Shown here piece by piece: positions 7,073 through 57,859 of a stretch of 64,000 nucleotides of DNA. The DNA comes from Polytrichum commune (lineage: Eukaryota; Streptophyta; Polytrichopsida; Polytrichales; Polytrichaceae), in contig OX485807.1 in assembly GCA_950295325.1 (NCBI GenBank), positions 2,854,501-2,918,500 on the forward strand, written 5' to 3'. Each line of letters starts with the position of its first letter. Position 1 is the stretch's first letter. The position numbers and the translations under genes are program-made. Below the pieces are notes generated by a model. The model did not search any database, was not told where the DNA came from, and saw only the letters and a program-made list of their open reading frames with translations.

Positions 7073-7475
7073 CTACCTTTCTAAGCCTTTTGACTAAGAT
7101 CATGTAAACTATATGTTCTTATCAATTTAATATTTGATACAAGGCTCATCAAGTCTTATGATATTGATCTATTTTTCCTTGGGTGTGGGTTCATCAAACA
7201 ACTTGTTGTCAAGACCCACAAGCGTCACATTGTTATTGCACTTACTGTAGTTTCCACGGGGAGGTCACTGTCAAATTTTTATTAAACCATGTGAGGAAAA
7301 AATATAGGGTATTTTTAATTCAGGATTAAACAAATTATTTTAATTGAATTTTGAAACTTCCTGATTTTGATATATTTATTCTAGGTTGCCTAACTATGTT
7401 GGTCACTTTAAATAATTATTTGGCAAAGACCTGCCCAAGCCGCTATGAAACTACAATACTTCCTTTTGCAGGCAC
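7073..7475 (+). pseudogene. U2 snRNA pseudogene, decayed and split by an insertion
   Basis: Colinear with the U2 copy at 9408. Differences are dominated by C-to-T and G-to-A changes, for example CTCGGCC to CTAAGCC and GGCTAAG to GACTAAG. The branch-site pairing region GTGTAGTATCTG has become GTAAACTATATG, so it cannot act as U2. Near its 3' end a 212-bp TIR element (7245-7456) is inserted. A USE-like GTCCCACGATT lies at 7006, about 67 bp upstream of the equivalent of +1. Confidence 0.85.
7245..7456. mobile_element. 212-bp TA-flanked TIR element inserted in the U2 pseudogene
   Basis: Left end CTGTAGTTTC and right end GAAACTACAA, flanked by TA at 7243-7244 and 7457-7458. Removing it plus one TA restores colinearity with the intact copy (GCACTACATCC.. 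at 9586), so the boundaries are certain. The right end reversed (TTGTAGTTTCATAGCGG) resembles the termini of the 942-bp elements at 46873 and 49947. Confidence 0.85.
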
Positions 7476-7659
7476 AACCCTAGTCTCCCTCTAGGGACCC
7501 AAAGAATCTTGAAACCGCACATGGGGATCAATTGACAAGTCTATACAAAGGCACTTTGCAGTTTAAGACTAAGGTAATCGGTCCCTAAATGGACACTTTT
7601 GCCTTTGCACTCACTTCTCGTAGGATATGAAACATGCAATTAGCGCAAGATGATTGACA

Positions 7660-7810
7660 TATCCAAATCATGGTTGTAGCCATTACCCTCATAATATTCA
7701 TAGCTCATATGAATATCTCATTCATCATCAAGTCAACGATTCTCAAGCTCATTGATTGTACATATAGGTCCTTCCAATTATGTCGACTATTGAGCCTAGA
7801 GTGGTCAACA
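7660..7810 (-). repeat. Dispersed repeat copy
   Basis: Reverse complement contains GAATGAGATATTCATATGAGC; the block CTTCCAATTATG..GACTATTGAGCCTAGA on the plus strand is also shared. Both match, in inverse order, the sequence at 57880-58045. A further partial copy lies at 48935-49030. Unclassified. Confidence 0.55.
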
Positions 7811-8000
7811 AAGTTTGAGCATGTAGTCCAATCTCTTTGAAACACATGATGCCTTTTCAATGTCCATTCTTAGACCCACACCTAACCACACACAAATCAA
7901 ATACAAGTGTATGATTAAGAAAAGTGACCGAGTGAGGCCACACCCCTACCCATTAATCAAGATCATTGCCACTTATCGCACCTTGAATCCTACACTTGCC

Positions 8001-8520
8001 ATTGAAACTAGATAGAGGCCGACTATCCCTGTCTACAGAGAAAATAGATTATGCCACTCTTACTCTTATAATGCAACTAAAAACGAGGCACACTTTGTGT
8101 TGGAGTGTCCCCTATCTAACTCCTTTGGAGAATAAGTTTCAATCATTACTTGAGAATGCAATACTAGGGAGCCTTTGAAACTAGGCGGTGGCCGACTATC
8201 CTTATCTCTAAACATAATAGATTATGACACTTTTGCTCTTATAATGTAATTAAAAATAATGCACACTTTGTGTTGGAATGTCCCCTATCTAACTCCATTG
8301 GAGCATAAGTTTCAATCATCATTTGAGAATGTAGTATTAGGGAGTCTCAAATGCTTCCTTCAATTGGACCATCTAGTCGATGTTAGCCTCTATCTCACAG
8401 AGGCTACTGCACTCCGCCACTCTAGGGAATTAGCCGATTTGACACCATCCAAATGTACTTTTAGTCCCAGAAGGCTTTTGGTTTCCCAGACTTTTAAATC
8501 AATTTCATCTCATTTCATTA
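8001..8520 (+). pseudogene. LINE C-terminal zinc-knuckle remnant, tandemly duplicated
   Basis: Two tandem units with a 173-bp period (8001-8173, 8174-8345) each encode, in broken frames, an NEAHFVLECPLSNS-like segment. A Cys lies upstream, so the pattern resembles the zinc-binding C-terminus of LINE reverse transcriptases. The second unit continues, after a frame change, into an open stretch with FENVVLGSLKCFLQLDHLVD and then YLTEATALRHSRELADL. Stops and frameshifts show it is dead. The family is inferred from the C..HF..EC pattern only. Confidence 0.5.
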
Positions 8521-9336
8521 ACAAATCTCTTGGGAACCCATTTTCAAAAAACCGACAGGTAGACATGATGAACTGGAGGACCATGTTCAATGCGACATTG
8601 AGAATACCCACTTCAAGATGAGACAGTGCTTTGGAGTTCTTCCAATTGGGGCTTGCAAACCGGATTCTCTTGAAGTTCTGAAGCATTGTGGACGCTAAAT
8701 TCCAGGAAATTTGTAATGCAGGTAGTTTCTGTCTACACCCTTCACAATTTATATTCCGAGGCCCTGTTTACAGCATTTTGGTTCCATGTGGAAAGATGCA
8801 AGCATGAGGGATGGAATACTCACTTCTGTTTGTTGAGCTTTAGAACGGTACCTTCTCACGGCGAAGCGAGAGAATTGGAGCTTCCATGATGGAACAGATC
8901 CCCAGAAACTCCTATATCTTCCCCTCAGATCAGCACATAAAAGGCACGAACTGTGCTGTAGACATTCTCGGTGGTAAAGAACGTAATCAAGAGAAATAAA
9001 ATTCAAAAGCTCTCGTGGAAACCTCAACACAAAGCATATTGGTGCCTACTTACATGTATCGAGTGATGAGGAGGTTCTAAAGCATTAGCTGTACTGAAAG
9101 ATCACAAAGCCTCGAACGCACTCGATTGACGAGCTCTATAAGTTAATGTTTTTGTTTACATATTGCCAGGCACGGCGGTATGCACACTCATGTGGCTATT
9201 AGGGCAGCTCATTCAACATCCAAGCATTGCACAACTCACACGGTATTCGGTGCGACCTAGAAACGAACCTTGGAGATTTTGACAAATCAAGGTGCCTGTT
9301 CAAGTGAGTTGTTTCAAACAACAAATTAGACGATTT

Positions 9337-9350
9337 GTCCCATACACTCG
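9337..9350 (+). promoter_or_regulatory. USE-like upstream element of the U2 gene
   Basis: GTCCCATACACTCG starts 71 bp before the predicted +1. Plant snRNA genes carry an Upstream Sequence Element, consensus RTCCCACATCG, near -70. The equivalent in the downstream pseudogene is at 10378, also 71 bp upstream. I do not see a clear TATA box near -30. Confidence 0.6.
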
Positions 9351-9407
9351 GGGATCCCAAGGGACGAAGGAGACATACAGAAAGCGAAGGATGGCGCAAT
9401 TAGAGGC

Positions 9408-9602
9408 ATACCTTTCTCGGCCTTTTGGCTAAGATCAAGTGTAGTATCTGTTCTTATCAGTTTAATATCTGATACGAGACTCATCGAGTCTCATGATATT
9501 AATCTAATTTTTCAAGGGCGCGGGTCCGTTCGGCAGCTTGCTGTCAGGCCCCGCAAGTGTCGTCTGGGTATTGCACTACATCCTTGGCAGGCACAACCCT
9601 CT
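9408..9602 (+). ncRNA. U2: U2 spliceosomal snRNA
   Basis: The 5' part from ATACCTTTCTCGGCC to ATATCTGATAC matches the highly conserved eukaryotic U2 5' region. It includes the branch-site recognition segment GTAGTA at about 9441. A stem-loop II follows (CGAGACTCATCGAGTCTCATG). Next is a U-rich, Sm-like AATTTTTC near 9510, then a stem with CGCGGGTCCG/CAGGCCCCGCA-type pairing, then ATTGCACTAC and a short 3' stem near 9590-9602. All functional landmarks are present, so this copy may be expressed. U2 base-pairs with the intron branch site in the spliceosome. The 3' end is approximate, set by the usual plant length near 196 nt. A minus-TATA promoter makes expression uncertain. Confidence 0.9.
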
Positions 9603-9685
9603 CCCTCTTGGGACCCAAACAATCTTGAAAACGCACGCAGGATTTATGAACAACTTAATACCTAGGCAGGATGCAGTTATCATCG

Positions 9686-9830
9686 CCAGGTTTTTGGAAA
9701 CTGATGTATCTGTGGAGAAACTTTTTGATCAGAGGCAGATGGAAATGATGAGCTGGAGAACCATATCCAAAGTGCGATTTAGGGCACCCGAAGAAGACAG
9801 TGCTTTCGAGTTCTTTCAATTGTGCGTGAG
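9686..9830 (+). pseudogene. Possible PPR-repeat fragment inside the U2 unit
   Basis: In one frame the peptide reads EKLFDQRQMEMMSWRTISK followed by EEDSAFEFFQL. This resembles the plant PPR pattern (LFD.M..R.MVSWNTMI...EEAL.LF..M). The equivalent in the previous unit (8555-8640) reads NRQVDMMNWRTMF then DSALEFFQL with a stop between. Neither continues as a gene. Assignment rests on this short pattern only. Confidence 0.35.
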
Positions 9831-10448
9831 CTTTGCAAACCAGATCTCTTTGAAGTTGAGGCATCAGAGAAATCTTGAATTGCGGACATTTGCAGTATTT
9901 GTCTCCTCATCTACAACCTTCTATAATTATATTCAGAAGCTTTGTTCACACTAATTTGGATGTATGTGGAAAAATGCGAGGATGAGAATGGGATCCTCAC
10001 CTGTGTTACTTGGGCTCTCGATCATGTTTTAGTGAGAATATTGAAGGTCCAAGATGGAACAGATCACCAACAGCTCCTACACCTTGGATGTGTGGCTCAA
10101 TTCTTCTTAGGTGCTCTGCTTGATCCCTTCTATGCATCCACTGGTCATTCCCAAGTATCCATCAAGTTGTAGCTCTTCAGGTTTTGGTAAAGTGAGTATA
10201 ATGTCTTGTTATTCATACTAGACCTGCAGCGAGCAACATCTCTGTCCTTCGCTTGACTGAAAATCCTAAACATTTCACAACTCATTGGGTATTCAGTCCG
10301 ACCTGGAAGTGGACCTTGGAGCTTTTGATAAACCACGGTACCTTTTCAAGTGAGTTGTTTCAAACAACAAATTATTTGTCCCATACACTCAGGGACCTCC
10401 AGGGGCGAAGGAGAGATAGACAATGGGAAGGATGGCACACTGAGAGGC

Positions 10449-10625
10449 ATACCTTACTCGGCCTTTTGTGGCTAAGATCAAGGGTAGTATCTGACATGAG
10501 ACTAACCGAATCTCATGACATTAATCTATTTTGTCTTGGGTGGGAGTCCGTTCGGCAGCTTCCTGTGAAGACCTGCAATCATCACCTTGGAATTGCACTA
10601 CCTTGGAGGCGCAATTCTTCCTCGT
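10449..10625 (+). pseudogene. U2 snRNA pseudogene with internal deletion
   Basis: Begins ATACCTTACTCGGCC and keeps GGGTAGTATCTG. It lacks the following ~27 bases corresponding to TTCTTATCAGTTTAATATCTG, which form part of the conserved 5' domain. It then resumes with ACATGAGACTAACCGAATCTCATG. The 3' half is recognisable to GAATTGCACTAC. An intact USE-like element lies 71 bp upstream. It cannot fold as normal U2. Confidence 0.85.
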
Positions 10626-10639
10626 CGGGGTGCCAAATA

Positions 10640-11577
10640 GTCTTAAAACTGGAATCAAGAATACTCTACTTTTGCTGCCAAATCTCTTCATCCGTATAGG
10701 AGAGGTCTTCAGATCCTAAGTAGCTACAATACAGAGAAGCCTCCACAGAAAGAAATTGATAATTGTAATTGCTGTTCATTTTGCATCGCATCAGCTGTCG
10801 CCTGATCGCCCGTTCAGATTCTTCCCTTCTTCACTGAACACCACAGAAGAACAAATCTCAGCACTGACACACTCCAATCATTTACTCCAGGACTTACACC
10901 CTTGGAACGCAAAATTTATTATTCTCTGATCACCTTGTGGACAATTTATAGACTTATTCCACAATCTCTGAAGCTACAGTGGGAGTCCTGGTCCTTGACA
11001 CCAATTGTTACGTCATTTAAAATTAGATACCTATTCCTGTTCGCAGGATGAATTATTTGCGCATCGTAGACTGTGCCAATGAGCCTCCTTTACAAGTTTT
11101 ATAGAGAAATGTGCCTCGAAGATTTCCATGATACACCAAGAATACTGTAGGTCAATTGACCTCCTTATGTCAAAAGGGGTAGACACCGTAGGACAGATTT
11201 ACACATACCCTCTTCACGTTAAGCCAGGTGGATGCATAATAGAATTTCACACAGCAAGAACAGAATTGCAAGGTTCAAATTCGAAACTGAGGACTCAATT
11301 TGTGTACAACATTTGTAAGCCATGAACGTCCACAACAGTAATGAATGAGTACTATAAATGCTAACAAGGAGCTAAGAATTTTAGGCAAGTTGGGGTAAAA
11401 GAAATTCATGCTGGATGCTTGTGAGTGAGCTTCATTAAGAATGTTACACCACGCAAGAACAATCCTTCTTAATTGAGCTTACAATGCTGGAGTATCGTCC
11501 CAAATATACACTGGGCTATGAGAGCTTATATATAAAGAAATAATGTAACAAGATTAGCCCCCACACATCACTGCGTA
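10640..11577. other. Intergenic; probable 3' UTR of the minus-strand gene
   Basis: No recognisable coding sequence. On the minus strand an AATAAA (plus-strand TTTATT near 10915) lies about 660 bp beyond the stop of the gene ending at 11578 and could be its poly(A) signal; this is weak. Confidence 0.3.
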
Positions 11578-19335: not shown

Positions 19336-19336
19336 C

Positions 19337-27209: not shown

Positions 27210-27567
27210 ATTCAAATCTCAATGCAAGCTCTCTTCAGTCTCTTAGTGTTAGGAGATGTCTTAGGAATAAGTGGCGCTACCTTCAACTCTCAATGCAAAC
27301 TCTCTTCAGATTCTCAGTGTTAGGAGATGCCTTAGGAATAAGTGGCGCTACCTTCAACTCTCAATGCAAACTCTCTTCAGATTCTCAGTGTTAGGAGATG
27401 CCTTAGGAATAAGTGGCGCTACCTTCAACTCTCAATGCAAGCTCTCTTCAGTCTCTTAGTGTTAGGAGATGCCTTAGGAATAAGTGGCGCTACCTCCAAC
27501 TCTCAATGCAAGCTCTCTTCAGTCTCTAAGTGTTAGGAGATGCCTTAGGAATAAGTGGCGCTACCTG
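27210..27567 (+). repeat. 71-bp minisatellite, five copies
   Basis: TAGGAGATG begins at 27250, 27321, 27392, 27463 and 27534, exactly 71 bp apart each time. Units contain AAGTGGCGCTACC and CTCAATGCAA.CTCTCTTCAG and differ at only a few sites. Because 71 is not a multiple of three, the same text appears in three frames, which explains the overlapping ORFs. A GAA microsatellite follows at 27569-27586. Confidence 0.95.
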
Positions 27568-27589
27568 GGAAGAAGAAGAAGAAGAAGCC

Positions 27590-30500
27590 TCTTTGAATAC
27601 AACAAAAAAAATTATGCACTCTGCAAACACCCAAGAGCATGCACTGATTTTCTTGAAATGTATGGTGAATGGGCATGAATTTAGTGTCACTCAGTAAAAA
27701 TTCTAGCACTCACTAATTTTGAGATTTGACAAAATAGTATGGGTTTCCGGAAATACGTACCACATCCATCGATTGAGATAATCAACGTACTTAGGCATGT
27801 CACCAAATTTAAATTTGTTTCATGTTACATTATTAGCCATGCAAATGGCAGACTTAGGGCACTTCACACATAATCCAAAGGTTGTGACCATGTAATTGTG
27901 AGGGCCCTTGATTCTCATCCAAGGGTTGTATCATTGGCATGGTTTGTTGGAATTTGCATCAAACCCACCTCTTGAAAGTGGGCTGGACGCAAATGCTGAC
28001 AAACCATGAAACATTATTTATAGTACATCATCTAGGAATCCATGTTGATTTTTCATCCACGATAATTTCTTTGGGCCCTACGCCTTCACCTTCTAGCGTG
28101 AAGTAAACTTGAAGTAGGCTTGACCTTTTCAACCAATAAGAGATCTTACTATGCAATGGTGAACGGCCCTTCGTTAGCATGTTAACTTACATCAAGAAAT
28201 CCGTTTTTTCTACGTTACATAAAAAGCAACCTCTTCAACATGCAAGTGAAATTAGATTTGAGTCTAAGTCTCGATAGTGTGGCCCACACACTATTTCCAA
28301 CACTCGGATCGCTCATTTAAAATACGCTCATGATTATTTTCTCGGGCAATCTGAGTCGCACTTGGTCTCTTTCCAACCGAGAATCGGGATGCAATTCCCT
28401 GGAATAACAAAGGTGAGATCATTTATTGCTCATCATTTCAAATAGAATCTAGTTTTTTCTTTCTCGATCCTTTTAAAGGACACATGTTCCCACTATATGG
28501 TAATATGCACGATTTAAACATGCCGCCTTGCCAAGTTCCATAATGCATTTTAAAACATTGTTTTATGGGTTTGAAACCTTATTTGAAGGAGAAAGTAGAA
28601 ACATGCTCATACATGACATTGGTGATCAAACTACAATGCATGTATTTGCATCGAAGGCACCTAGGTTGCATACATGAAATTAAATAATCCAATAACATCA
28701 AGATATTCAATTGATTCAAGTAATGCACTTAAAAAGAACAACGTCGTTTCAAATAAGGCCACTATGATAGAATTGCCTTACAATGGAAGTGTGTAACACA
28801 CATACATGTTCTTTTGGATGGGGAGGCACAGTATGGATGCTCGAGGTAAAGTTGTTTGTGAGCACACTTGATACTAGCTCAGGAAGAAAATAATTGCTTT
28901 TGAAATTGATATCGTTCATCTATTACGTCATTCCAAAAATTCATCAATAATTTTCACTAATTGCCTCAACTTGAAAGTTTCAACCAATGGGTCTTCTTCC
29001 TGTATGTGTGTTACGAGTTGGCTTTGGCATAAGAGTTGATGATCATTTATTAAGACCATCGATAAAAATGCTTAAAAAGTTCTTCAATCATCAATGAGAT
29101 AGGGAGTCGTTGGCCTTCTTCACTAACTTTTAGTGGGCTTGCGAGGTTTTGAACGTTGACCTTAATGTCGTACACACATTAGGAGAAATCATGTCCATTC
29201 CAACCATACATTGCAACTTGTTCACTATGATTCATGGCAAGAAAATGCATAATGAATCATTTCAGTTGCCAATCATAAGTTTTTGATTGCGGATTTGGGA
29301 GAATTGCCAACCTAAATGACTTCTTTATGCATAATCATGCCATGAGATGTAGTGAGCAAGTTGTAACAAATGGTTGGAATGAACAAGTTTTCTCCTAGTG
29401 ACACCTGATTCCTTGTCACCAACTTTTTCACACACCTCAAAGATACTAGAACAAGCCTCCAACCCTTTTCTCCCACCTCACCTGAACATTTTGAAGTCAA
29501 ATTCTTATAAACTGGATTTTGAAGTTCATGAAGATTTTTTTACATTATCGTCATATGGATATGATTTTAGCAATAATCATTCACAACTTTGTAGATATAA
29601 AATACTTATTGAAACCAACATATATATTTATATTTATATATTAAAAAAATGACTTGGGCACCTAGAGGTCAATACCTAGTTATTGGTGCCTTGGGTAAAG
29701 CCCACCTCTAAAAGGGCACAATCTATGTACAATGGAGTTGGTGGCAATGGTATTGGTCATCATTTCCCCTTCGAGATTGTTCCCCACCATTCCACAATGA
29801 GCATGTCAAAAACAATACACACACTTTGAATTGAAAATGGGCCAAGAGGGCAAGTGGCAAGGAAGAGGGAGGAGGGACATGGGTGTGTTAGAAGCGTGCG
29901 ACATGGTGGTGGTAGTGGCCATTGCCCCACCAATCCCCATTTTTCCAACCACTTGTATTATGTTGAAATCAATTAGTCTCAATTAATATTATTTTTTGAT
30001 TATTAAGATGACGATTTTGAGGATACATGTGGCAAAAGGCATTGATGGGCCACGAGATAGGGCATGTGGCATGAAGGCGGAAGGGGGGGGGGGGGCGCAT
30101 GCCCGACAAGCAACAACTCCACTGCCAATGCCTGCTAGTGGTGGGGCCTACATGAGCTTGGGGGGGGGATGAAGGGATTGCGTTTCAAAGCACATACACA
30201 AAGTCAATGACTAATCACTAGCATGTACAACAATTGCTCAGACATTTCACTTGCTTTTGCACATCTTGATTTGCTTTAAGCAAAACCAATAGTTTACAAA
30301 CAAAGAGACTCTCTTAGGCTAGACACATGGCATGTGATTCCACAACCCAAGTGGTCCTTGGAGGATGTGACCACAAAAAATCTAAACACAATAATAAGAA
30401 TATAATGTTTAAGCACTTTTTAATTGTTGGGTAAAACACATACAATTGTCTATCTATCTATCCATCCATTTTGCTATGTAAACCCCACCCAGGTTCAAAT

Positions 30501-32799: not shown

Positions 32800-35480
32800 A
32801 TACGGACTTGTGTATTGTAAGTAGCCAATCCATCACAAAAATACAAACATAGTTTCCAAATTTTGATGAATTTAGGGTTATTTATCTTAGAGAGTTCTCA
32901 CAATATGGTAAATTTTTTACTCTAAACATGATTTATGTTGATGTTTGTTGATATTTTGTTATAGGATGTTGGGTAGAGAAGGGGGTCACCTTGTACTCAT
33001 ATTCACTTCAACTCGAAACCACAAAGAACATGACATAATATCAAGATTGCAAAATTGTGTAGAGCTTTGTGGTCTAGTATGACCTCAACTTATTTTTTTG
33101 GACCTCAATTTCACATACAAGATGAACTTATGTGGAGTTGTATTCAACTAAGAAATGTGAGATAATCCAATATGTGTCCCCCCTAAAGAGAGTCTTGTGA
33201 TTTAAAGTCTTTACATGCCAAAGATATGAGCCTTAAACGAGTAAATTTCAACAAGTGTTTTCCAAGTGGTTAGGATGTTTGAAGAAGAAAATATGTTATG
33301 AACGAATTTTAGAGCTAGATTTTGCAAAGAATTGTATATATTTTTTGGATTTGTGTTCCACTGAAAAAATGTTGTATTATCAAGTATCATTCCACTTCCA
33401 ATTCTTTTTATGAGGTTGGTGTAATTTTGCACGAGTTATGCAAAAGTATACACACAAGGGGATTATTGGGGCTTCATCTCAAGTTCAATGATCCCACAGT
33501 GGACACTACTCCACACTACTCCCGTTCTACTTGTGATAAAAAAGAGGGCTTGATCCTCTTGAATGTTATAATTGAATCAAATGTTCACAATGAACACCCA
33601 AAACTTATTCATTGGGTAATGATGAACAAGAAAAATAAATAAATAAATAATCCACCTACCAATTTTTGACAGATCTGTAAATAATATTGGCAGAGGTGTG
33701 CCGAACCAACTATTAAACTACGACAGTCACCGACCTTACTCACAACTCTTTCACCCTAAAGTGGATCGGGACCAATCGGGACGAAATTACTATATCCAGT
33801 CAATGGATGGGTCCATGACCATACCTTTTGACATTCATCACACCTTACCCTTTTTGTGGCATTTGGACGATATATTCCAGTCATGTACATATGTGGTGGA
33901 ACAACATCATGTTGCTTCACGTTGAAGGAGTTGCAACCAACCGACATACTTAGACACTCACTACCACTACGCGAGCCCTCAATCATTGTAACATCTCCTT
34001 CCTCCCAAATACATACACCCCTTGTAAAAATCAAGCAAAATAATTGGTTCACCATGTCGGGCTTTTTGTTTGCACGACCAAAAAATCTAAAGTTTATTTG
34101 ACCACCTAACAATTGAAGTAGACAAAGCTAATTCGGTCACTCCCCTGAATCATACACATGAATTTGAGTGGTATATAACTTGCTTGTAGTTGTCAACAAA
34201 CACCCAAATTGTTGTGCGTGTTCCAATGGGATTGGACAACATGCTTACAAGAAAGACACCATTCTAGGCTCAATAGTGTACAAACATGGGAGGGCCTATG
34301 CGATTGTTTGACCTAGACTTATAGCCTTTGCATCTCAACTCTGATTATGAAACTTGGAATGATAACCTTCTTTGCTAATTGGTTGAGAAAAAATCCCTAG
34401 TTAAATCCATCGGTCGTAATGCTTGTGGAGTTGAAAGTGTCCACATTAACCATGTCTACCTTTAGTTACAAACTTTTGAGCCATTTTTTTGAACCTCTCT
34501 AAAGTAGAATGCAAACATACCATCCTCGAAAGGGGAGAGTAGTACTGTCCAAATTTCCCCTTGTCGGGCGGGCATCGAGTCATTTGACAATACGAACGGA
34601 CACTTCATTCACGCCGGCCCCTTAAATTGGGACCGGAGTTTCTATCTATCTATCTAGAATGCAAACAAAGAAGAAAACAAAAAAGAAGTTATTCGCAATA
34701 TCCTCCAAAGAGGCACCAAACATGGAGTGCAATGGCTCTTTGGAAGGAGTGCCTCCAAGCAATATGTTGTCAAAGTCAAAACTTGAAAGTTGCCCGAAAC
34801 TCCCATGGGCGAGGTGGTTTCTTTGAGGGATCGCATTTGGGGATAATGTTTGAGAGAAAATTGAGAAGAATCGGCCCATTGGAGGAGCTAAGCGCCGTGC
34901 TAAACTTTGCATTGACTTGTCAATTGCAGGTTGCCCGATACTTAATTTTAGCCAACCTTAAAAGTCAATAACGTCCCGAATAATCTTACCATCTCAAGAT
35001 TCAAGAAACCCATCATTTTGTTTCAAGTTCCACGTACAAAGTTTCTCGGGTATCCCTAATGTATCACTTCTTTGAAACTTCTTCCTTCCAAAGCTCCAAA
35101 TTTTGGTGGCTGGTCAACGCGACGGATAAAATGTCGTGGCACTCATGATCCGAGTCCAAGTTCTTTCCAAGTTCTTCAAACAACTCCGACCACGGAACCC
35201 GGAGCTGTGTCGCAAACAGGGGCTTAAAATAAAATAGACAAAGAATCAAGATAGGAGTGCAATAGCCTATCGCGAGTGATGGTGATGACGTCCACCAGTT
35301 TTTGTGAGTAGCTTATTAGTCATTTTCACTTCGTCATGATCTGCCGTATATAAACTTAGACTGGTCAAGGCGAGAAACGCAGACAATCTCCTTTGACTCC
35401 AATAGTTATCTTATCGTGTCTGTTAATAAATTTGCGCACTTTATCACACATGGCTTACCCAGCATCTGTGAAGCGGTGAA
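32800..35480. other. No gene recognised
   Basis: AT-rich intergenic DNA with scattered short ORFs. A (TCTA)n tract lies near 34640. Nothing supports a gene. Confidence 0.5.
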
Positions 35481-43141: not shown

Positions 43142-43150
43142 CCTTCAATG

Positions 43151-46011: not shown

Positions 46012-46050
46012 TTCACTGTACAAACCCACTCTTTTGAGGTTCATAATATG

Positions 46051-46177: not shown

Positions 46178-46319
46178 AATGGTATGTTAATATTCCATAA
46201 TAGGCAAATACTATTGAAAAAATAATTACATGCTCCGAACAAAATAGAAACAAGAATCTAGTCACGTATAGCAATGATGACTAGATACACCGCATGTGGA
46301 CTCGTAACATCCAACACTA

Positions 46320-46538: not shown

Positions 46539-46872
46539 AAGCATAATAACAAATTTCAAGTTCGGACCCCACTTGTTACACATTAACAAAGTCCATGTGT
46601 CAGGTTCACTAGATATTTTTGTCACATTAAAGGTGCAAGTGATGACCAAAGATACACAACATGTATTGTAATTCATACAATACATATACAAAATGGACCC
46701 TAAGTTTTGCTTGTTGGACATAAACCCTTAAATGCCTAAGCAATCCAAACGTGTTAAAATGGATGTGGTCTTTGTTAATTAAATATTTTTTAAATATTCT
46801 TGATATTTTAGTATGTTAGGTGGCATGAAATGGAATCCATAGGTGATGGAATTCAAACCTAATGTTCATATA

Positions 46873-47814
46873 CCATAGGTTCATAGCTGGTTCGACACAT
46901 GTTAGCCGAATAATTAATTAAATTTCAAAAAGTCGGTTCGGCACCTAAAAATAAAATATTCATATTTTCAGCAATTTTCTCTTTTAATTTTAAAATTTCG
47001 GCTTAAATTCATTTTTAATTTTCTATTTAAGCTTATATCTTGTACATCTCTCTTGCATTGAATGACAAGTAAGATGTGAGTGAAGAGTTGAGAATGCTCT
47101 GTGCTTTATGCAAGTAGAGTGGAGTTGTGTTCAACAATGCATATGGGATATGTTAACTTTGAGGTGAAGCACCGAGTTAGACTTCATTTTTATAACACGC
47201 ATAACTTTTTCATAGAGTCTTCAAATGACATAAAATTTGTTGGAGGTGAAAGATTACTTGATTTCTAAACTTTTCTTAGACCAACAAAATTCCAAAAAAG
47301 TTGATCTTCTATGCACAAATGAGCTCCGAAACACTGTTATGAATGCATTTTAATTTTTTGATCTTTACACGGCTGCAATGTTTTGTCCATATCTTTTGCA
47401 TAAAGACTTATTTTGACACAAAACTTGTTGGAGGTGGAAGAAGGATTTATTTCTCAACTTTTGTTAGTTGGACAAAATTCTATAAAACTTCATCTTCTAT
47501 GCTCAATTGGACTCCAAAAATTTGTGTACAACACATTTGAAAAACCTCACCTAGAGTCTTGCTACTTCTTAATCCATATTCTTTGTGGACTAATGTAAGT
47601 GAGCTTGATTACAAAAGGAGCACCTTCTCTCTTTCAAAATTCACATATGCTTCCACTGTAAGTAAAACTCTAGTGAGAAGTAAAAATTTCTTACTTTTCG
47701 GAAATTTTGAAAAATAATTAATTTTATATTCGGCAAAAAATGCCAATAATATTCCAAAATTTTCGGCATCTATTTTTAGAATTATTTTCTGTCGAACCAG
47801 CTATGAACCTACGG
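46873..47814 (+). mobile_element. TA-flanked TIR element, 942 bp, copy 1
   Basis: Ends CCATAGGTTCATAGCTGGTT and, reversed, CCGTAGGTTCATAGCTGGTT, with TIRs of about 25 bp flanked by TA at 46871-46872 and 47815-47816. An imperfect ~130-bp direct repeat lies inside (about 47205-47335 and 47390-47525; both contain GTTGGAGGTG and CATCTTCTATGC-like text). No transposase; the ORFs of about 60 codons are shadows. An inverted copy of identical length lies at 49947. Confidence 0.9.
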
Positions 47815-48489
47815 TAATCTTTCAAATGTACACCGATTAGGATTTCTAGTGTATTTGCCCCCCCCCTTGGATCTACTGGTTTAGAGGGCTTAAAATTGTA
47901 TATTGTTGGGGATCATATGTATTGTGGATTTAGAAATTTGTGCATCAAACATTTCCAAATCCGTCCTTATGTACATTATGCCACATCCATCATTGGGATT
48001 TAGATTCATCAGTGTCTAGGAGTCTATAGCAAGGACCCTCAAGAATTCAAAATTCGATATTTGTGGGAGTTATAAGTTGCAAATGGTTGGTATTATCAGT
48101 CACTTTCTAATGATTTGTTACTTAACTCCATACACCTAGCATAAAGTAGGGACATCAATAAGAAATAAAAGTGAAAAAAACTTCCTTTTTTGTGACACCT
48201 CACCAGAAGAAGAAGAAAAACTTCGGTCTCCGGAGGAGACCGACGTGAATGAAGTGTCTGTTCGATCCTCCTCCAATCCGATGCCCACATGACAAAGGTA
48301 TGGAGGTGAAGATCTACTCCTCCCTTTCGAGAGTAGACACTATAGTCACCAGTTACTAGTAACAAGAACCAAAATGGTTAGTTTTAGGGGGGGGGGGGGT
48401 TGTTGGTATGGTTTGGGTCGCCAAGTCTCTATTTCATTTGTTAGTGGATGGAGTAGAGTGGCTTAATTACCAAAGTTTTATGGCTTTGT

Positions 48490-48820
48490 CTATGGGGGGT
48501 CTAGTGTTTGGGGTAGGGGTTGGTGGTTTTCTATTCTTCTTTTGTGTAGGTGAATAGTCATGGCATATTTAATAGCGATAGTATTGATGTTTTTAAAAGT
48601 ATTTTTAATGATAGGCATAGGTATTTTAAATTTATTTTTGAGTGATTTCATTGAAGGAATGTGTGTAGTGGCTCTAGCGCCTGCGGTGATTATAATAAGG
48701 GGGTCAACTTTCCATCCTCTAGCAATAATACTATCGATTAATGGTTTATATTTGTTATTTTTTGCTTCGAGTGTTTCTGGAGAGAATCGACACCTCACCA
48801 CAAAACACATGAAAATAGTC
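48490..48820 (-). pseudogene. 5'-truncated LINE, C-terminal domain only
   Basis: The minus-strand frame of about 105 codons (PLIIITAGARATTH, KNTFKNINTIAIKYAM, HLHKRRIENHQPLP) aligns throughout with the last ~100 residues of the element at 3-1616 (PLITITAGVRGAIHE, KKLMKDIHQNAIKYL, VLNKRKLDNRQKPVP). Identity is moderate, so it is an older or different subfamily. The frame is still open to its stop. 5' truncation is normal for target-primed insertion. The structured 3' tail seen at 1644 is not evident here. Confidence 0.75.
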
Positions 48821-49047
48821 TAGCTAGAGATAATTGAGTAATTGGAAAGTTTTGAGATGGTTCTCACCGACCTGTTCTAAACATCTACACATATGGAATC
48901 CATAGGTGATGGAACTCAAACCTAATGTTCACTTTGATATTGAATAAGATATGCATATGAGCTCCAAAAATCATGAGCAAATTGGCTAGGATCTTGGTTT
49001 GAGTTTGCTAACCATCTCATACTAATCGCGTGTTTTGCATTCCAAGA

Positions 49048-49740
49048 GAAGTGGGCTAGTTCAAGCCGCCAACCAACTACATTTTGGTGGACTACTAGAT
49101 TGTGAAGGGCTATGGACATGGACAACTAGACTTCCATGTGCCCACTAAAGCACTTTTTAACCTACAAGTGTGGGTCGCCGAAGGTATTTGAAGACCAAGG
49201 AGGAGGAGGTTTTCACCTCGAGGAGGGGGTTACTAGGTGGGCTCATATTTGAGAAGATGAGAGTAGTTGCACTAAATATGATATTTAATGTCACCGATTC
49301 TAATTGTCTTGCTCAATACTAATCTAAAACCAGAATGTAGTGTCACCAACACAAATTGTTAAATCTAACATTATTTGTCATTCCTTGTAAACTTTTTTTT
49401 GGGATTATAGATTCACAATCATTGCAATTACTTTCGCTTACCGAATGATTTTTCATCCAAATTTGAATCACAAGTTGCCGACAAGAAGAAGGTAGGGGTT
49501 TAGCCAATGGATGAACTCATCCATCATCCATGATAATATTTGTTCACTTCTTCATAAGAAGTGTCACCCGAAAAGTTACCATAGCGACATAAAATACCAT
49601 ATGACATTAAATATCATGTATTTAATGTAGTTGGCACATTCGAACTCTATCCCCACTAGACGCCATCTATATTTGGATGAATTTGTCCTGATTTCCACTA
49701 GAATCCGGTAGGCGAGCAACCAACACGGAACCTCACCCTA
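49048..49740 (+). mobile_element. TIR element family B, copy 3, interrupted by a MITE
   Basis: Flanking parts 49048-49269 and 49628-49740 align with 41255-41607, for example TTTGAGAAGATG.GAGTAG and TTGGCACAT. The left end is missing. Confidence 0.65.
49270..49627. mobile_element. Palindrome-ended MITE, 358 bp, nested, with clear target duplication
   Basis: Left end CACTAAATATGATATTTAAT; right end its imperfect reverse complement. It is flanked by TAGTTG on both sides (49264-49269 and 49628-49633) and sits in family-B copy 3. Copies 1 and 2 show the uninterrupted site, so the boundaries are well supported. Confidence 0.8.
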
Positions 49741-49743
49741 AGA

Positions 49744-50980
49744 CACATCTACCATAGAGGTTAAACTACGTATTGTACCATGGCGGCCGGGGTTCAAACT
49801 TTGATTACTCAACATTTTCCCCAACAAGTTGCACCTCACGCTTACCTCAATGCTTTCATCAACATTGCACGAAAAGGGTCACGTCCGGAGCTCACATCTA
49901 CCATAGAAATTAAACTATAGATTGTACCATATCGAGCTTTGGATTACTGTAGGTTCATAGCTGGTCCGACACTAAATAATTAAAAAAAAAAAAGTTGAAA
50001 ATTTTGGAATATTATTGGCATTTTTTACCGAATATAAAATTAATTATTTTTCAAAATTGCCGAAAAGTAAGAAATTTTTACTTCTCACTAGAGTTTTACT
50101 TACAATGGAAGCATATGTGAATTTTGAAAGAGAGAAGGTGCTCCTTTTGTAATCAAGCTAACTTACATTAGTCCACAAAGAATATGGGTTAAGAAGTAGC
50201 AAGACTCTAGGTGAGGTTTTTCAAATGTGTTGCACACAAATGTTTGGAGTCCAATTGAGCATAGAAGATGAAGTTTTATAGAATTTTGTCCAACTAACAA
50301 AAGTTGAGAAATAAATCCTTCTTCCACCTCCAACAAGTTTTGTGTCAAAATAAGTCTTTATGCAAAAGATATGGACAAAACATTGCAGCCGTGTAAAGAT
50401 CAAAAAATTAAAATGCGTTCATAACAGTTTTTCGGAGCTCATTTGTGCATAGAAGATCAACTTTTTTGGAATTTTTTTGGTCTAAGAAAAGTTTAGAAAT
50501 CAAGTAATCTTTCACCTCCAACAGATTTTATGTCATTTGAAGACTCTATGCAAAAGTTATGCGTGTTATAAAAATGAAGTTAACTCGGTGCTTCACCTCA
50601 AAGTTTACATATCCCATATGCATTGTTGAACACAACTCCACTCTACTTGCATAAAGCACAGAGCATTCTCAACTCTTCACTCACATCTTACTTGTCATTC
50701 AATGCAAGAGAGATGTACAAGATATAAGCTTAAATAGAAAATTAAAAATGAATTTAAGTTGAGTTTTTAAAAATTAAAAGAGAAAATTGCTGAAAATATG
50801 AATATTTTATTTTTAGGTGCCGAACCTATTTTTTGAAATTTAATTAATTATTCGGCTAACATGTGTCGAACCAGCTATGAACCTACGGTACTCAACAATT
50901 TTCCCCAACAAGTTGCACCTTACGCTTACCTTAGTGCTTTCATCAACATTGCACGAAAAGGGTCATTTCCGGAGGTGCTC
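49744..50980 (+). repeat. Two-copy tandem repeat, 150-bp offset, second copy split by the 942-bp element
   Basis: ACATCTACCATAGA at 49744 and 49894 starts each copy. The second continues after the element, at 50889, with CTCAACAATTTTCCCCAACA, matching 49808 onward. The first copy therefore shows the pre-insertion site GATTACTCAAC. Confidence 0.9.
49947..50888 (-). mobile_element. TA-flanked TIR element, 942 bp, copy 2 (inverted)
   Basis: Reverse-complement of 46873-47814 at high identity and identical length. It is flanked by TA at 49945-49946 and 50889-50890. Comparison with the empty site at 49806-49807 proves a TA target duplication and exact ends CTGTAGGTTC..GAACCTACGG. It lies about 280 bp upstream of the TATA box of the cysteine synthase gene. 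Confidence 0.93.
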
Positions 50981-51165
50981 TTTCTTCGTGTTGGTTGTCA
51001 CCAACTTCTCACCGGCCAACAATTTTCCTTACAAGCCCTTTATCCCAAGGGACAACCCAAACTATGAAGAGCCTTCCCCAACATGCACCTTATACACCAT
51101 GTGAGACACCTACTATTCCAAGGCTACGTTGTCTACAAGCTCTAGTAAGTGTAAAGTAGGTCACC

Positions 51166-51173
51166 TATATAAG
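51166..51173 (+). promoter_or_regulatory. TATA box of the cysteine synthase gene
   Basis: TATATAAG lies 153 bp before the ATG, leaving room for a leader of about 120 bp that includes AACCCTAGC near 51240. Confidence 0.65.
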
Positions 51174-51318
51174 ATTGTCTATCCCCTAGGCTTGTGGGAT
51201 CTCTATAGGTGTGTCTTCATCCCAAGAACCCAAACCCCCAAACCCTAGCAGAGAATTCTCTCACCGCTTCCTCTCCGATTTGCGTCGGGTCCGAGCTTGT
51301 GCAGAGAGTTTCGTAGCG

Positions 51319-54300
51319 ATGGCGGCCTTTGTGCGGGCGCAGTGCGCAGTTGTGGGAAGCGGTGCTTCGGTCGCACCGGCTTCTTGGAAGGCTGCAGGAG
51401 GCGGAAATGGGAGCGTTGGGATGCCGTGTGTGGAATCGCAGGTTTCAGGATTGCAGCTGAAGGGAGTTCGGGCGGAGAAGAGCGTGGGGTTCGTGAAGAG
51501 GAGTGTGGTTTGTCAAGCTGTGTCTGTGGAGGCTGAGAAGGAGCTGGAAAGTTTGAACATTGCGGACGATGTGACGCAGGTATGGAGATTTGTGGAACTT
51601 GTGTGAGCGTCTCTCAGCATTCAACTCCCAACAATTTTTTTTTGTTTCTGTAATCCTCCACGGGGATGTTGAAAATTGAACGCAATTAGACTTCAGTTGT
51701 GTGACGTCTTCCACGGCGCACGTTCTGAAGGACATAGAATGCATTGAGAACGGTTGGTGTTGCAAGTCTGAGGGATGTCTTGATTTTTCTGTCAATAACA
51801 GAACGCATAGCGTATCATTATCTCCATGGCTACCAATGTGAGAGCACCTTGGCATGTGAGAGTTCCTCGTGTAAATGATAGCACAATGCGTTCTGTCTAC
51901 TGTTCGCATTCTTGCACATTGCGGACGACGTGACGCAGGTATGGAGATAGTGGAACTTGTTGAGCCTCTCAATATTTAATCTGACAATCTTTTCCTGTAA
52001 TCCTTTACGGGGTTTTTGAAGGCAATTAGATTCCAGTGTTTGAGTTCTACCACTGCACATTCTGAAAGACATAGAATGCAATGAGAACAATTGGTGTTCC
52101 GAGTTTGAGGGATGTCTTGATTCAAGAACATGGCCAAGGTGCTCTCACATTTGTAGCCAAGTCTTTAGACAACTGTCTTGATAAGAACTGAGGTCCACAA
52201 TGGGTCTTCAGGATTTTGATTGAACCTCTGACAATCACAAGGTTGCTAGTACATTCTTTCTTATGCTCAATTGTCAGTTCCTCCTGTAATGATATTATAC
52301 GTGGTCTGTTATTGTTCACAATTTTTGGGATTCCTCTGTGCAACTGAGATTGTAGCCGTTTTGCTTCTTAAGGGATGTTTAATATAAATCCTCATCAATA
52401 AATGTTGAGGAATAGGTTCACAAGTTGGATATTAGTAATTTTTTTTCTGACATGGGTTTGGTTTGTAACAGTTGATTGGAAAGACTCCAATGGTGTACCT
52501 CAATACAGTTGTGGAGGGCTGCGTTGCTAACATTGCTGCAAAGTTGGAGATCATGGAGCCGTGCTGCAGTGTCAAGGACAGGTGGATTTCTCTTTCATCA
52601 CACACTCGTTTTTCAAGTGGCAAGACAGCTTTGTTCTAGGGGTCAAAAAGTCCAGGCAAGAATATTTTGCGGAGGGGTGCTTCAAGTATTCTTCTGAAAT
52701 GCATTGGTTACTGAAATAAGTGAATGTCCTGGTGCTCGTGATTAAGTGAAATACATGAAATTTGTTTCATCTACAAGTAAGGACTTGAAGCACCTTTATC
52801 CTTGGTAGATTCTAAGTTTTGAGGTTGATCTCAGATATAGCTTTGGAAGTTATTTTTGCTGAGGAATTTTCTTGTGTGAATTGCAGAATTGGTTTCAGCA
52901 TGATCAGTGATGCAGAAGCCAAGGGTGCCATCACTCCTGGAAAGGTAAATGGGTCTTGGCCATCTTGTTCTTACTTGCTATAGCATGTTTTGTGGCTTCT
53001 TCCTGGTGTGCATTATCTGGCATGTTTGGGCTGTTGGTTTCACAGAGAGGACTGCAGTTGTGACAAATGTTGCACTTGTCAGTCTGTACGGAATCAAGGA
53101 ATTTCTGCAAGGCTTAGTACAAATTATTGACTACTGTACTAACACTTTCGAGATGACCATTTTTTCTGTATCTTTCTGTAAGCTCATGAAATTAAGAAGA
53201 CCTCAAGACCTCCTTGAGTGCCATTTCTTCTGTTTCACTCTCGAATCTATCAAATTCTTCATGCCATTTACTTACATATGCTCTTTATGTGTACAGAGTA
53301 TCCTTGTCGAGCCAACTAGTGGAAATACTGGTATCGGACTAGCTTTTATCGCTGCTGCCAAAGGTTACAAGCTCATCCTCACCATGCCTGCCTCCATGAG
53401 TTTGGAGAGAAGGATTCTCTTGAGGGCTTTTGGTGCCGAGCTTATCCTGACTGACCCAGCTAAGGGTATGAAGGGAGCTGTTCAGAAGGCAGAGGAGATT
53501 GTGAAGAAAACACAAAACTCTTACATGCTCCAACAATTTGAGAACCCTGCAAATCCCAAGGTAATCTGAACAGTTCATGCAAGCAAGATACAGTGTTGGT
53601 GTTTAGAAAGTTGTGTTATGGTATCTTGCTTATTCTTAGAGCAGGTGAAAGCAACAACCTTTTTCTAAATTCTCGTTCCATGGATGTGCACTTAAGTGAC
53701 AAGTTGGGGTGTGAAGTGCATCATATCAGTGGACTCACAGAGGAGCTATCCTTGCATTGTAGGTCCACTTTGAGACCACTGGTCCAGAGATCTGGGAAGA
53801 CACTGCTGGGAAGATTGATATTTTTGTTGCTGGCATTGGTACTGGTGGAACTGTTACTGGTGCTGGTCGATACTTGAAGAGCAAGAACCCCGACATCAAA
53901 GTGAGTCACAGATGCGATTGATACTTATTTGGGCAGTCTTCCCATTTGTGTTGTACAGTCTGATGTTGTTGTGGTCTAGGTGACTTTTGATCTATAGTTT
54001 TTCCCACCGGACTTGGAAACTGTTTAAGATGAGTCTGTTTTTTCTGTATGTTTAGTACCAAGTATTTCACTGGGATGTGCCATGCCACTACTGTCTTATC
54101 AGGGTTTGCATGGTATTTACAATGACAAATAGCTGCAGGCTGTGTTGGATTTGGATTTCTTTTCACAGTCTTATGAGTCAATTTAGCTGACTGACAACTG
54201 TTTTGTTCATCTGTAAATTGTGCCATTCTAAGTGTCGTTGAAAAAATTGCTACAGATTATTGGCGTGGAGCCAAGTGAAAGCAGTGTTCTTTCTGGGGGC

Positions 54301-55603
54301 AAGCCAGGTACATATTTATTGATGGCTTTCACAGGGTACCGGGTCAATATTTGTGAAGCACTAGTTATTCATCGGTTTGCAGGCTGCATAAACTTGTCAT
54401 GAAGTTTAAATCTGGCATTGAGTTTCTGTCATGCTTGGAAGTCTTTCTAATAACATTTTTCTAATAACAGTTGACTTTGTTGTTCCTCTTCTGATGATGA
54501 ACATGTTGAGGTTTCAACACAACCTTGCTGTCTTTAGTTTGGTTCAAGCTAGCCACTTGGGTAGTTCTATAACCTATGGATGTATTTGTGTTGAAAAGAT
54601 AGACCTTTCTGTGGAAAGGCTAAAAGCAAGGAATTAAGTAGGAAAGATAGGTGAATCCCATTGAGAGGAGCTGATCACGTTGGTTGAGTGCAGGACCTCA
54701 TAAGATTCAGGGGATAGGTGCAGGGTTTATTCCTGGTATTCTTGATGTTGATATTCTTGATGAGATCATTCAGGTGATCCTTTGCTCCAATTTGCTGTTG
54801 CACTTGTCTCATTTTTAAAAATATTTTCTTATTGCAGTATGATGCTGACAATTGTAGCTGGTAATGTGCCCTCCATTACTGACAGTGGTGATGCTATGTT
54901 CCAGATCTCTAGCAATGAAGCTGTGGAGATGGCGAAGCAGCTTGCCTTAAAGGAAGGATTGCTGGTAGGTCTACATAATAAAACTCACATGGTTTGAGCA
55001 TTTGGGTAGTAAGAGTCGACGGAAGGCTCATGGTAGGCATGTGAGATTGCCAAACCACATAGATCAAATATTTATTCTGCAGACTTCTGTATGGCTTGTT
55101 TATTCCTGGCAGCCTGTGACTTGAAAAATACAAAGGACATTGGCTACAGTAGGTGTTTATGACTTTTTTTTTCAAATTTGTGGTGCAGGTGGGAATCTCA
55201 TCTGGAGCTGCTACATCTGCTGCAATCCAAGTGGCCAAGAGGCCAGAGAACAAGGGAAAATTGATTGCTGTAAGTCACGCCCCACTTTTGTTTTCTGTAT
55301 TTTGAGAGCTTATTTGCATGTGGCATTCTTGCATATATGTAAAGCAAGCGTAAAAATGGAGGGTTTCATTGTACATTTGATTCACTGTACATATGATTCA
55401 ATCAAGATCGTAGTAATTGCATATTAGTTTCTGGAAGAGTGATTTCCACCGTATTCTGTTTGTTTACTGTAACAAATTTCTAGTAACTTAGAAGAATTTT
55501 CCTTGTGCAGGTCATCCTGCCCAGCTTTGGAGAGAGATACTTGTCATCAGTGCTGTTCCAGTCCATTCGGGAGGAAGCTGAAAAGATGCAGCCAGAGGCT
55601 TAA
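51319..55603 (+). CDS. Cysteine synthase / O-acetylserine (thiol)lyase, plastid type (10 exons)
   Basis: Model: join 51319-51579, 52472-52581, 52887-52944, 53297-53560, 53763-53900, 54256-54307, 54694-54773, 54905-54964, 55189-55269, 55511-55603. All introns are GT-AG, phases agree, 398 residues. The enzyme is PLP-dependent and condenses O-acetylserine with sulfide to cysteine and acetate. Residues 1 to about 66 are Ser/Ala/Val-rich, with few acidic residues, and end near RSVVCQA, a likely chloroplast transit peptide. PLP lysine K122 sits in CSVKDR. The substrate loop PTSGNTG is 149-155. The phosphate-binding GTGGT is 257-261. The loop [11 protein letters not shown] at 293-303 is where serine acetyltransferase docks in the cysteine synthase complex. 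GISSGAA at 343-349 supplies the serine facing the pyridine nitrogen. The C-terminus [12 protein letters not shown] is family-typical. All catalytic elements are intact, so it is probably functional. The ATG is the first in frame after the leader. Intron 1 contains a partial duplication of the end of exon 1. Confidence 0.95.
51556..52120 (+). repeat. Tandem duplication (offset 359 bp) of exon-1 end plus intron-1 start
   Basis: ATTGCGGACGA.GTGACGCAG with its GTATGG donor, at the end of exon 1, recurs at 51918-51944 inside intron 1. It is followed by about 200 bp of similar sequence (CTGTAATCC.. through GAGGGATGTCTTGATT). The second copy preserves a splice donor at 51939. A ~28-bp inverted repeat links 51824-51851 with 52131-52157. 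Confidence 0.85.
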
Positions 55604-55760
55604 ACTTAGTTTTGAAATTATGCAACAAACTTGTGAAGAATAGAGCCAACTCTTTTTGAACTATATTGACTGCAGTTGAGCTTATGAACAAAGGGGCAAA
55701 AAATACCTCACGTTTGTGATGGGCGGTGTGCATTATGTAATAAAAGATAAACCTGTCATT
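55604..55760 (+). terminator. 3' UTR with poly(A) signal
   Basis: AATAAA at 55739-55744, about 136 bp after the stop codon and preceded by T-rich sequence, is the best candidate poly(A) signal. Confidence 0.6.
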
Positions 55761-56129
55761 AAGTGTAGTCTTTCCCATATTGATTGCTCATTATGTAACC
55801 TTTTGGATTTCATATTGCCTCTGAACTTTTGTATGCATTGGCTATTTATAAATAGTTTCTCCCCCTTGCATTTATATCATTGGAGTGATGTGGTTGAGGC
55901 TAAGGTTGAATTCTTTTGTATGTGATGAGGGTTTTGTCCTGACAATGATGAAAGAGGAATGTCTTGTTACTATGAAAAGAAGGTGTTGCCTTTTACAAAA
56001 ACTTAAGGAAAGCTTCTGTGTCCATGATCTTGTGTCATTGGAGAGGATTGAGAATTCAGAAAGCACAGCAATTTTATTTATTTAGTATGGGTTATTCTTC
56101 AATTTAACATCAAAACATTGTACACTGTT

Positions 56130-56300
56130 TTGTTGCACTTTGTTGTTCCTTATCTGGTGGTGCACAAGTTGGTATTAGTACAATCTTGCTGGCTTTGTTG
56201 TGCTTTAAGCTGGTAAATTGGATCATTTCATAGCCTGTGGATGGGATTCGTAATGGGATTAACCTCTGTTTGAAGGCTGAAGTAAGGAATTAATTCATAA
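56130..56300 (+). repeat. Sequence related to intron 6 of the cysteine synthase gene
   Basis: CTTTGTTGTTCCT, ACAA.CTTGCTG.CTTT, ATA.CCT.TGGATG and AAGGAATTAA occur in the same order as at 54470-54640 in intron 6. Probably an old duplication or a dispersed repeat. Confidence 0.5.
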
Positions 56301-56971
56301 AAATATTGTTTGTAATTTTAATATATTTTGATGACGTGGCGACTCTGGTAGCCCTATTTCACTAATCAACATCTTGACAGCAAAGGACCAACACAAGAAA
56401 GCATGGGTGTTTCAGTTAAGATTTCATGTGCACACCATTTCTCTCCACTGGGGTCGGAAACAGTTTTGCCCTTACTTCCAATTTGCAAGTATTCTTCTGT
56501 AATGCCTATAGAGGTTGTCCAACGTCCAGTTGAAAGGAAGATAGATTGAACTCGAATTGCAAATAAAAGATCCATTTGAACCTTTTGGGTTCAGCTAAAT
56601 TTATAGATTTGGAAGTTCAGAACAATTGTCTTCTGTTTGGCACTCCTGCCATTAGTTTTGGGATTAGTGTTGTCTCCAAGTTGCTTCCTGGCGATGCCAT
56701 CAAACTAAGTTAAATGAATGTGCTTGATGCTTCTAGGTCTTGTGTCCGAATTGGGGTTGGTGTAAATAAATAGTTGCACAGATTATGGCCTCTTCCTCAC
56801 ACCATAAGGTAGATGTGCCTAATTTGTTGGATCTGTCTGTAGGACAGAGACTATGCATCAACCTTCTTCGTTTCAAGAGCAAATTTCCTAACCACTTTGC
56901 GTTCACACTTGGACGTTACTTGTTCTTGTTATTTTTGGTCCACTTTATTTAATGTGGATGTTAACTATAAT

Positions 56972-57003
<32 letters not shown>

Positions 57004-57376
57004 TATGTATATGTATATATAGAACTATAATTGCGCCCTAAAATGCATTGAAAGAAATCTAGTTAACTATAGTTATTTCGGCAGTTCTTGATTATTTATT
57101 CTAAAAATTTCGGGTGATATCAAAATCCTTGACCTGCATTTGAGAAGAAAGTGCACAAAATCCAAGAAAGGTTTGGTATAGTAAATAGCCATGGATTGGC
57201 ATGAGCAAAGTGGACAACTATAATTGTAGTCTTTCATAGTAAAGGACAGAGCCTCATGGTTCTACCGTTTTCTTGTTTATCTATCTTAACAGACACCCAT
57301 ATGTGAGTGGTTTGTAGTTAGGTGTGCATATGTGAATGAACACTGAAAAAATATGTGTCTAAAAGAGATTGGACTA
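56300..57376. other. No gene recognised; (TATG)n microsatellite at 56973-57020
   Basis: Intergenic sequence. The (ATGT)n/(TATATG)n run is the only clear structure. Confidence 0.6.
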
Positions 57377-57859
57377 CCGTAGCTCTCTAGCAGCTTCGAC
57401 ACCTTTCTTCCTAATAATTAATTAAAGTGGTAAGTTAGGCAACCCATAAAAATCGTATTCTAGCATAGGGAAGTTTCAAAAAGTAAGTAAATATAAGTTA
57501 GACATTCATCCAAGTCATTTTTGTAATTTATGGATGGTTTTCCTAATTTCATCTATGGCAGCTACGATCACCCTAAGCACTTCCCTTAACCAACATTCCT
57601 AAATTTGTCTTTTCCTTACCCTAAAGTTTGTCTTTTACTTGTATGTCAAGGTTTTGCTTGGCAACAAATTTTGCTTTGTATGAGAGTTATACGGAGTGGT
57701 CTTTGTGAGAGACTATGTCACTTGCATTATTATGATTTTAGGCACTCTTTATTTTTTATTTTTTTATTTTTTTTGGGACACTCAATGAAATTAATTTCCT
57801 AGAAATTTAGGCACCTTTAGAATTAATTAATTTTTGCCCAAGCTACTAGAGAGCTATGA
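57377..57859. mobile_element. TA-flanked TIR element, 483 bp
   Basis: Left CCGTAGCTCTCTAGCAGCTT and right, reversed, TCATAGCTCTCTAGTAGCTT, flanked by TA at 57375-57376 and 57860-57861. Subterminal AATAATTAATTAAA is shared with the 942-bp elements (46913) and, as AATAATTATTTAAA, with the 212-bp element. No transposase. Confidence 0.8.

Follow-up and report, generated by a model that had tools for sequence, protein, structure and literature searches.

Miniature inverted-repeat transposable elements (MITEs) derived from pogo-type transposons are a known kind of repeat. The Emigrant elements of Arabidopsis, together with Lemi1, reportedly provide such pogo-derived MITEs, a link credited to Feschotte and Mouches in 2000; Emigrant ends are of the CAGT type. 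According to the available text of a superfamily survey, pogo elements have terminal inverted repeats (TIRs) of up to about 40 bp, lengths of 1.2-5.2 kb, transposases of 300-977 amino acids (aa) and DDxD spacings of 29-59, and in land plants that text names only Lemi, from 23 eudicots and without significant amplification (PMC7386202). A second study reports two plant clades among its pogo elements, one numbered 38, from Selaginella, and one numbered 52, from dicots (PMC7325037), and the main text of a four-grass survey leaves pogo unmentioned (PMC3579700). Here we describe four TA-flanked elements, A (212 bp), B1 and B2 (942 bp each) and C (483 bp), in a 64,000-nucleotide stretch of contig OX485807.1 (positions 2,854,501 to 2,918,500), the whole of which is called the window below. 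The four are very probably MITE-like, non-autonomous offshoots of a divergent pogo-type lineage, within the IS630-Tc1-mariner group, that resides in the same genome. As with Emigrant and Lemi1, non-autonomous TA-flanked elements here share their ends with a pogo-type element of the same genome. Unlike Emigrant, they have CCGTA ends in place of the CAGT type, and they are set apart by a transposase with N[TS]DQ and QPADV motifs, a DD37D triad and an AT-hook.

The elements had been noticed in a first-pass annotation of the window, which placed them at 7245, 46873, 49947 and 57377; these positions were exact, with TA on both sides of all four. In the shared terminal form it gave, YYRTAG, the YYR stands for CCG, mostly altered by C-to-T and G-to-A changes. 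A 25-bp end consensus with up to three mismatches matched seven of the eight element ends plus one extra site at 33723, the end of A on the left in the window (7245) being too degenerate, while five Markov-simulated controls of 128 kb each gave no match at that setting. Because this consensus had been derived from the same window ends on which it was scored, a profile built from transposase-linked ends was the better test. Twelve such ends from elsewhere in the genome were used, one of them from an element cognate to the 942-bp MITEs and none from 483- or 212-type elements. In the window, the profile placed the left ends of all four elements at the top, with 53.5 bits for B2, 48.2 for B1, 46.6 for C and 33.3 for A; the next window matches reached at most 15.9 bits, and the reversed window gave nothing above 8 bits.

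The target was addressed by joining the element flanks with either one TA or two and aligning them across the junction to paralogues in the window. The one-TA model prevailed in all three cases, by 7 points for B2 and by small margins for A (4 points) and C (2 points); the window held no uninterrupted paralogue of the B1 insertion site. These results fit insertion at TA with a 2-bp TA duplication, and the uninterrupted paralogues set the boundaries: the element includes the outermost CCG-type bases, and the target is the TA. TA-targeting Mutator-like elements (MULEs) of the MuTAnT, TAFT and Micron kind likewise occur at TA-rich plant sites, although the available text on them describes occupation of (TA)n microsatellites and, for MuTAnT, 9-bp duplications and GGGG ends (PMC4486113). 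The target here is a single TA, the empty sites agree with duplication of 2 bp, and the transposase described below is of the DDE_1 type; given the fit to a TA duplication and the DDE_1 transposase, membership of the TA-microsatellite MULEs was rejected, and a MULE origin is exceedingly unlikely.

Genome searches were made with the two larger sizes. For the 942-bp element there were 694 first-look candidates. The 40 best were scored, with matches at 96-100%, and 30 loci were fetched, 28 of them with both ends recognisable. TA stood at each side in 27 of these 28 copies, the length was exactly 942 bp in 19, and CCGTA was present at 49 of the 56 ends. Divergence from the consensus averaged 1.7% (29 copies); as these are best-scoring copies, the figure speaks to the age of the family's young part only. 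With the 483-bp element, 785 candidates led to 40 scored and 30 fetched loci, 27 of them with both ends, and a mean of 10.3% from the consensus makes this family look much older. B1 and B2 represent the same 942-bp element in opposite orientations (~96% identical), and A shows 75% identity to the 483 consensus across 116 bp. The earlier proposal of one family in three sizes therefore held in that the elements are mutually related, but the three sizes are two subfamilies, a young, high-copy 942 family and a 483 family with the 212-bp element as its shorter relative, and the left ends of the two find their closest counterparts in different transposase elements. The 942 element also contains a direct duplication of ~150 bp, ~75% alike (consensus 328-481 and 516-669; window 47200-47541).

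The exact 942-type end pattern occurs in the 408-Mb assembly at 143 forward and 131 reverse sites, and the reversed pattern has no site in either direction. Among the matches listed, which cover contig C1 and part of C2, at least five inverted end pairs lie 3.1-4.2 kb apart, and these five were fetched; inverted pairs of 1.4 kb and 18 kb are also among the matches listed, outside the fetched set. All five elements have TA flanks, 942-type ends and the broken remnants of one transposase gene. They are ~88-96% alike in their main shared blocks, their ends match themselves over ~25-32 bp, and they share 48-86 bp with the 942 consensus at one end and 34-70 bp at the other, the interiors being unrelated. 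The first-pass annotation had suggested looking for a longer element that combines these ends with a DDE transposase, and such elements were found in the same genome (five elements, with DDE_1 relatives).

A 406-aa piece of the protein of one long element (L063) was then used as a query against the genome (102 candidates scored). It returned 104 matches in several subfamilies: one cluster with 84-100% identity represents the cognates of the 942 ends, and the remaining matches show 33-62% identity, except for one fragment at 73%. None of the 104 lies in the window, in line with the earlier view that the four elements are non-autonomous and that their transposase is encoded elsewhere. Eight of the 104 sit in stop-free open frames of 609-631 aa, four of which were read (L066, L067, L068, L109); the full-length transposase proteins measure 596-613 aa. 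In the subfamily with a 630-aa transposase, the 3' end beside TA is of the CCCTAC..GGCAGGTTCGGCC type (L067:3103, L068:3094), a further end variant.

The enzyme type was assessed in five relatives, three full-length and open (L066, L067, L109), one that runs into a stop (L110) and one without its first residues (L111). Pfam DDE_1 (PF03184) was above cut-off in all five (E 1.2e-9 to 4.7e-16; 38-59 bits, cut-off 22), whereas DDE_3 was below cut-off in all five (14-24 bits, cut-off 28.6). The transposase alignment holds the triad motifs N[TS]DQ, WLIDCW-like (WLIDCWSVH-like) and QPAD (QPADV), with a spacing of 37 between the second and third aspartates (DD37D) in eight of eleven rows, the eight in which both are readable and among which the L068 row is nearly identical to that of L067. 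An AT-hook core, GRP[KR], lies near the N terminus in each of the eight rows that hold the N-terminal part. Sequence searches of the PDB gave no match for L063 and a merely chance-level match for the alignment (E 0.42); NCBIfam gave sub-cut-off matches in one of three proteins, IS630 at E 0.0064 among them. Pattern hits for the transposase in viral_contigs (56) and prokaryote genome_contigs (34) included none confirmed as a relative.

These features bear on whether the elements might instead belong to the plant mariner branch (Stowaway, DD39D), their ends being merely a divergent variant of CTCCCTCCGT. Stowaway and PlantMar elements share with those described here the TA target and short non-autonomous copies in high number, the DDE_3 matches are weak but present, and the first-pass annotation recorded a mariner-type element in the window, for which it is the only source. 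However, DDE_1 scores well above DDE_3 in all five relatives, the triad spacing is 37 and not 39, and the ends differ and contain no CTCCCTCCGT motif, as the annotation had stated. PlantMar/Stowaway membership was rejected on the grounds of DD37D and CCGTA ends in place of DD39D and CTCCCTCCGT, and a mariner origin is very unlikely. The annotation's separate TA-targeting group is TA-targeting indeed, but as a DDE_1/pogo lineage it would form a sister branch of mariner within IS630-Tc1-mariner. The TA duplication, DDE_1, triad spacing, TIR, element length and protein size all fall within published pogo ranges, and a spacing of 37 lies within the DD29-42D of Lemi. In the available text of the superfamily survey the same likeness extends to TA duplication, TIRs below 40 bp, a DDxD triad and the ranges of element and protein size, while the AT-hook present here goes unmentioned there (PMC7386202).

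The transposase-linked left ends align without gaps over nearly 60 bp. They start with CCGTA and a variable core, followed by GC and the half-sites TTCGGCA and TGCCGAA, six bases apart, and then by AATAATTAATTAAA. The subterminal block previously taken to be shared by the elements is this last motif; it is present at the left ends, but it marks left ends only, the right ends being laid out differently. Where right ends are readable (942, 483, L063, L067), they lack the left-end spacing and have an AATAATT-like stretch directly after the first half-site, in a layout similar across the two MITE families and the long elements. The ends seem to be asymmetric, with left and right each preserved. 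The 942 left end is identical to that of its own long element at 56 of 60 positions, and the left ends of the 483 and 212 elements match that of the L072 transposase element at 51 and 44 of 60, respectively, compared with 31-32 of 60 for the best of 3000 shuffles. Thus the ends beat shuffled sequence, and they are not each tied to a different superfamily.

The pairing of the two left half-sites was examined in 15 end types (12 transposase-linked and 3 MITE-like), one picked by eye per group with near-duplicates dropped. Around N6 the half-sites are complementary at 82 of 105 positions; the next best axis reaches 41, and none of 2000 shuffled sets reached 82. When half-sites were re-paired among types, 82 was attained in 0.5% of 20,000 permutations, an optimistic figure because the types are related. 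From one subfamily to another, the two half-sites appear to vary in concert, and the imperfect palindrome TTCGGCA-N6-TGCCGAA is proposed as the site of the transposase.

The association of ends with the gene was surveyed in the 40 of the 104 matches that lie outside the 942 cluster and reach the N-terminal part, with 750 bp upstream of the gene examined in each. A CCGTA-type end was recognisable in 30 of the 40, exceeding the best of 200 shuffles in 26, and in all but one of the 30 it lay 269-351 bp upstream of the gene. This result weighs on the idea that the long elements are unrelated transposons with the same ends captured by recombination, the MITEs being moved by another enzyme. Such capture would accommodate the unrelated interiors of MITEs and long elements and the many other DDE_1 genes in the genome. 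It is also favoured by the right end of B2 (49947-50006), which looks chimeric, its outer ~47 bp being like the 3' end of L063 and its inner part like the 942 family, as would be expected if ends were swapped by template switching or conversion; since B2 has a long-element-type end, exchange of ends seems to happen. However, 30 of the 40 divergent transposase copies have this kind of end ahead of the gene, and the ends vary by subfamily yet retain the palindrome, so that capture is decidedly unlikely.

Several observations weigh against a pogo-type origin of the four elements. No clear end was found in 10 of the 40 upstream pieces, and the pattern used to score them was drawn up after some ends had been viewed. 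The palindrome is imperfect, at 4-7 of 7 positions per type, with one type at 7. The 483 and 212 elements are linked to the transposase solely through their ends, a long element bearing 483-type ends on both sides was not obtained, and no stop-free full-length copy was seen in the 942-cognate cluster. Only subfamilies other than the 942-cognate one pass the DDE_1 cut-off: L063 has no DDE_1 match, either in its first 406 aa, which give no meaningful Pfam match, or in the whole frame with X at stops, and C-terminal pieces of the cognates L061 and L064 fall just under the cut-off (E 2.3e-4 and 7.6e-4). One L112 piece reads N at the third D, and the N-terminal HTH_Tnp_Tc5 match is weak and below cut-off (E 0.008 in the 942 cognate piece, 0.036 and 0.14 in others).

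The ends, the target, the gene and their linkage are observed directly, and a pogo-type origin of the elements suggests how they may work together. The transposase of an intact relative would bind the ends through the subterminal palindrome and the adjoining AT-rich block, excise the element and join it at TA, which would thereby be duplicated. MITEs would arise by loss or replacement of the interior with ~35-85 bp of each end retained, and would multiply because these ends are what the enzyme needs.

A genome search with DDE_1 gave at least 150 matches in addition to the low-scoring ones of the present lineage (150 of 984 candidates scored, all those listed being over the cut-off), and none of 14 control genomes responded; many of the matches lie in open frames, with scores that barely differ. 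One of them, L113 (C3:20791975-20792523; DDE_1 124 bits), shows only 25% identity over 163 aa to the present lineage. At least 21 DDE_1 rows, among the matches listed, share a stop-free 397-aa frame, which suggests a recent burst of another pogo-type family; the ends of that family (for example at L113) were not found.

Positions of the features are collected in the table. The degraded fifth element (33094-33723) has one left-type end only, its other boundary was not found, and between 33094 and 33228 it resembles the interior of the 942 element (~70% similarity). U2 small nuclear RNA (snRNA) matches lie in the window at 7073-7266 (100 bits), 9408-9601 (175.6 bits) and 10449-10619 (51 bits); the first is broken near its 3' end by element A, and the last has diverged. 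A tandem array of 71-bp units occupies 27211-27637. The terminal stretch of an open reading frame at 52949-53569 looks similar to cysteine synthase.

Table. Features of the window (L, left; paired half-sites were located by applying the palindrome axis to each copy)
Feature	Position	Strand	Remarks
Element A, 212 bp	7245..7456	-	L-type end at 7456; the right end, at 7245, is degenerate; host sequence a U2 snRNA-like copy
Target TA of element A	7243-7244 and 7457-7458
Element B1, 942 bp	46873..47814	+	Young MITE family; TA at 46871-46872 and 47815-47816
Element B2, 942 bp	49947..50888	-	Inverted relative to B1; L end at 50888
Element C, 483 bp	57377..57859	+	Older MITE family; TA at 57375-57376 and 57860-57861
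Paired half-sites, left end of B1	46891..46910	+	TTCGACA-N6-AGCCGAA; putative transposase site
Paired half-sites, left end of B2	50851..50870	-	Putative binding site
Paired half-sites, left end of C	57395..57414	+	TTCGACA-N6-TTCCTAA; decayed relative to family consensus; putative binding site
Paired half-sites, left end of A	7419..7438	-	TTGGGCA-N6-TGCCAAA; putative binding site
Degraded fifth L-type end	33674..33723	-	Outer dinucleotide TA lost
Uninterrupted paralogue, B2 insertion site	49799..49881	+
Uninterrupted paralogue, A insertion site	9465..9616	+	U2 copy
Uninterrupted paralogue, C insertion site	7771..7920	-

No description of CCGTA-ended TA elements was found in a literature search that left Repbase, Dfam and most subscription journals outside its scope, and a search by end sequences returned no transposon paper. 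A MITE survey of 207 plant genomes (PMC12550479) may include these families, and the present lineage may be new. We suggest, tentatively and with the odds somewhat against it, that it constitutes a deep, undescribed branch of pogo/IS630-Tc1-mariner, with AT-hook transposases of ~600 aa that combine DD37D spacing with the motifs N[TS]DQ, WLIDCWSVH-like and QPADV, with left half-sites that covary, and with a diversity, within a single genome, of roughly a dozen types of end and two or more MITE families.

With these results, unlabelled repeats become a family with a named enzyme type, and a MITE annotation that labels every TA-flanked element as Stowaway would misfile CCGTA-ended elements. The many subfamilies, with their own end types and in some cases long open frames, form a natural set for studying the recognition of pogo ends, and because the half-sites appear to change together, they are suited to testing how pogo transposases read them. 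If the host is a land plant, the lineage also bears on the published view of pogo as scarcely amplified in land plants, and its diversification would go against that view.

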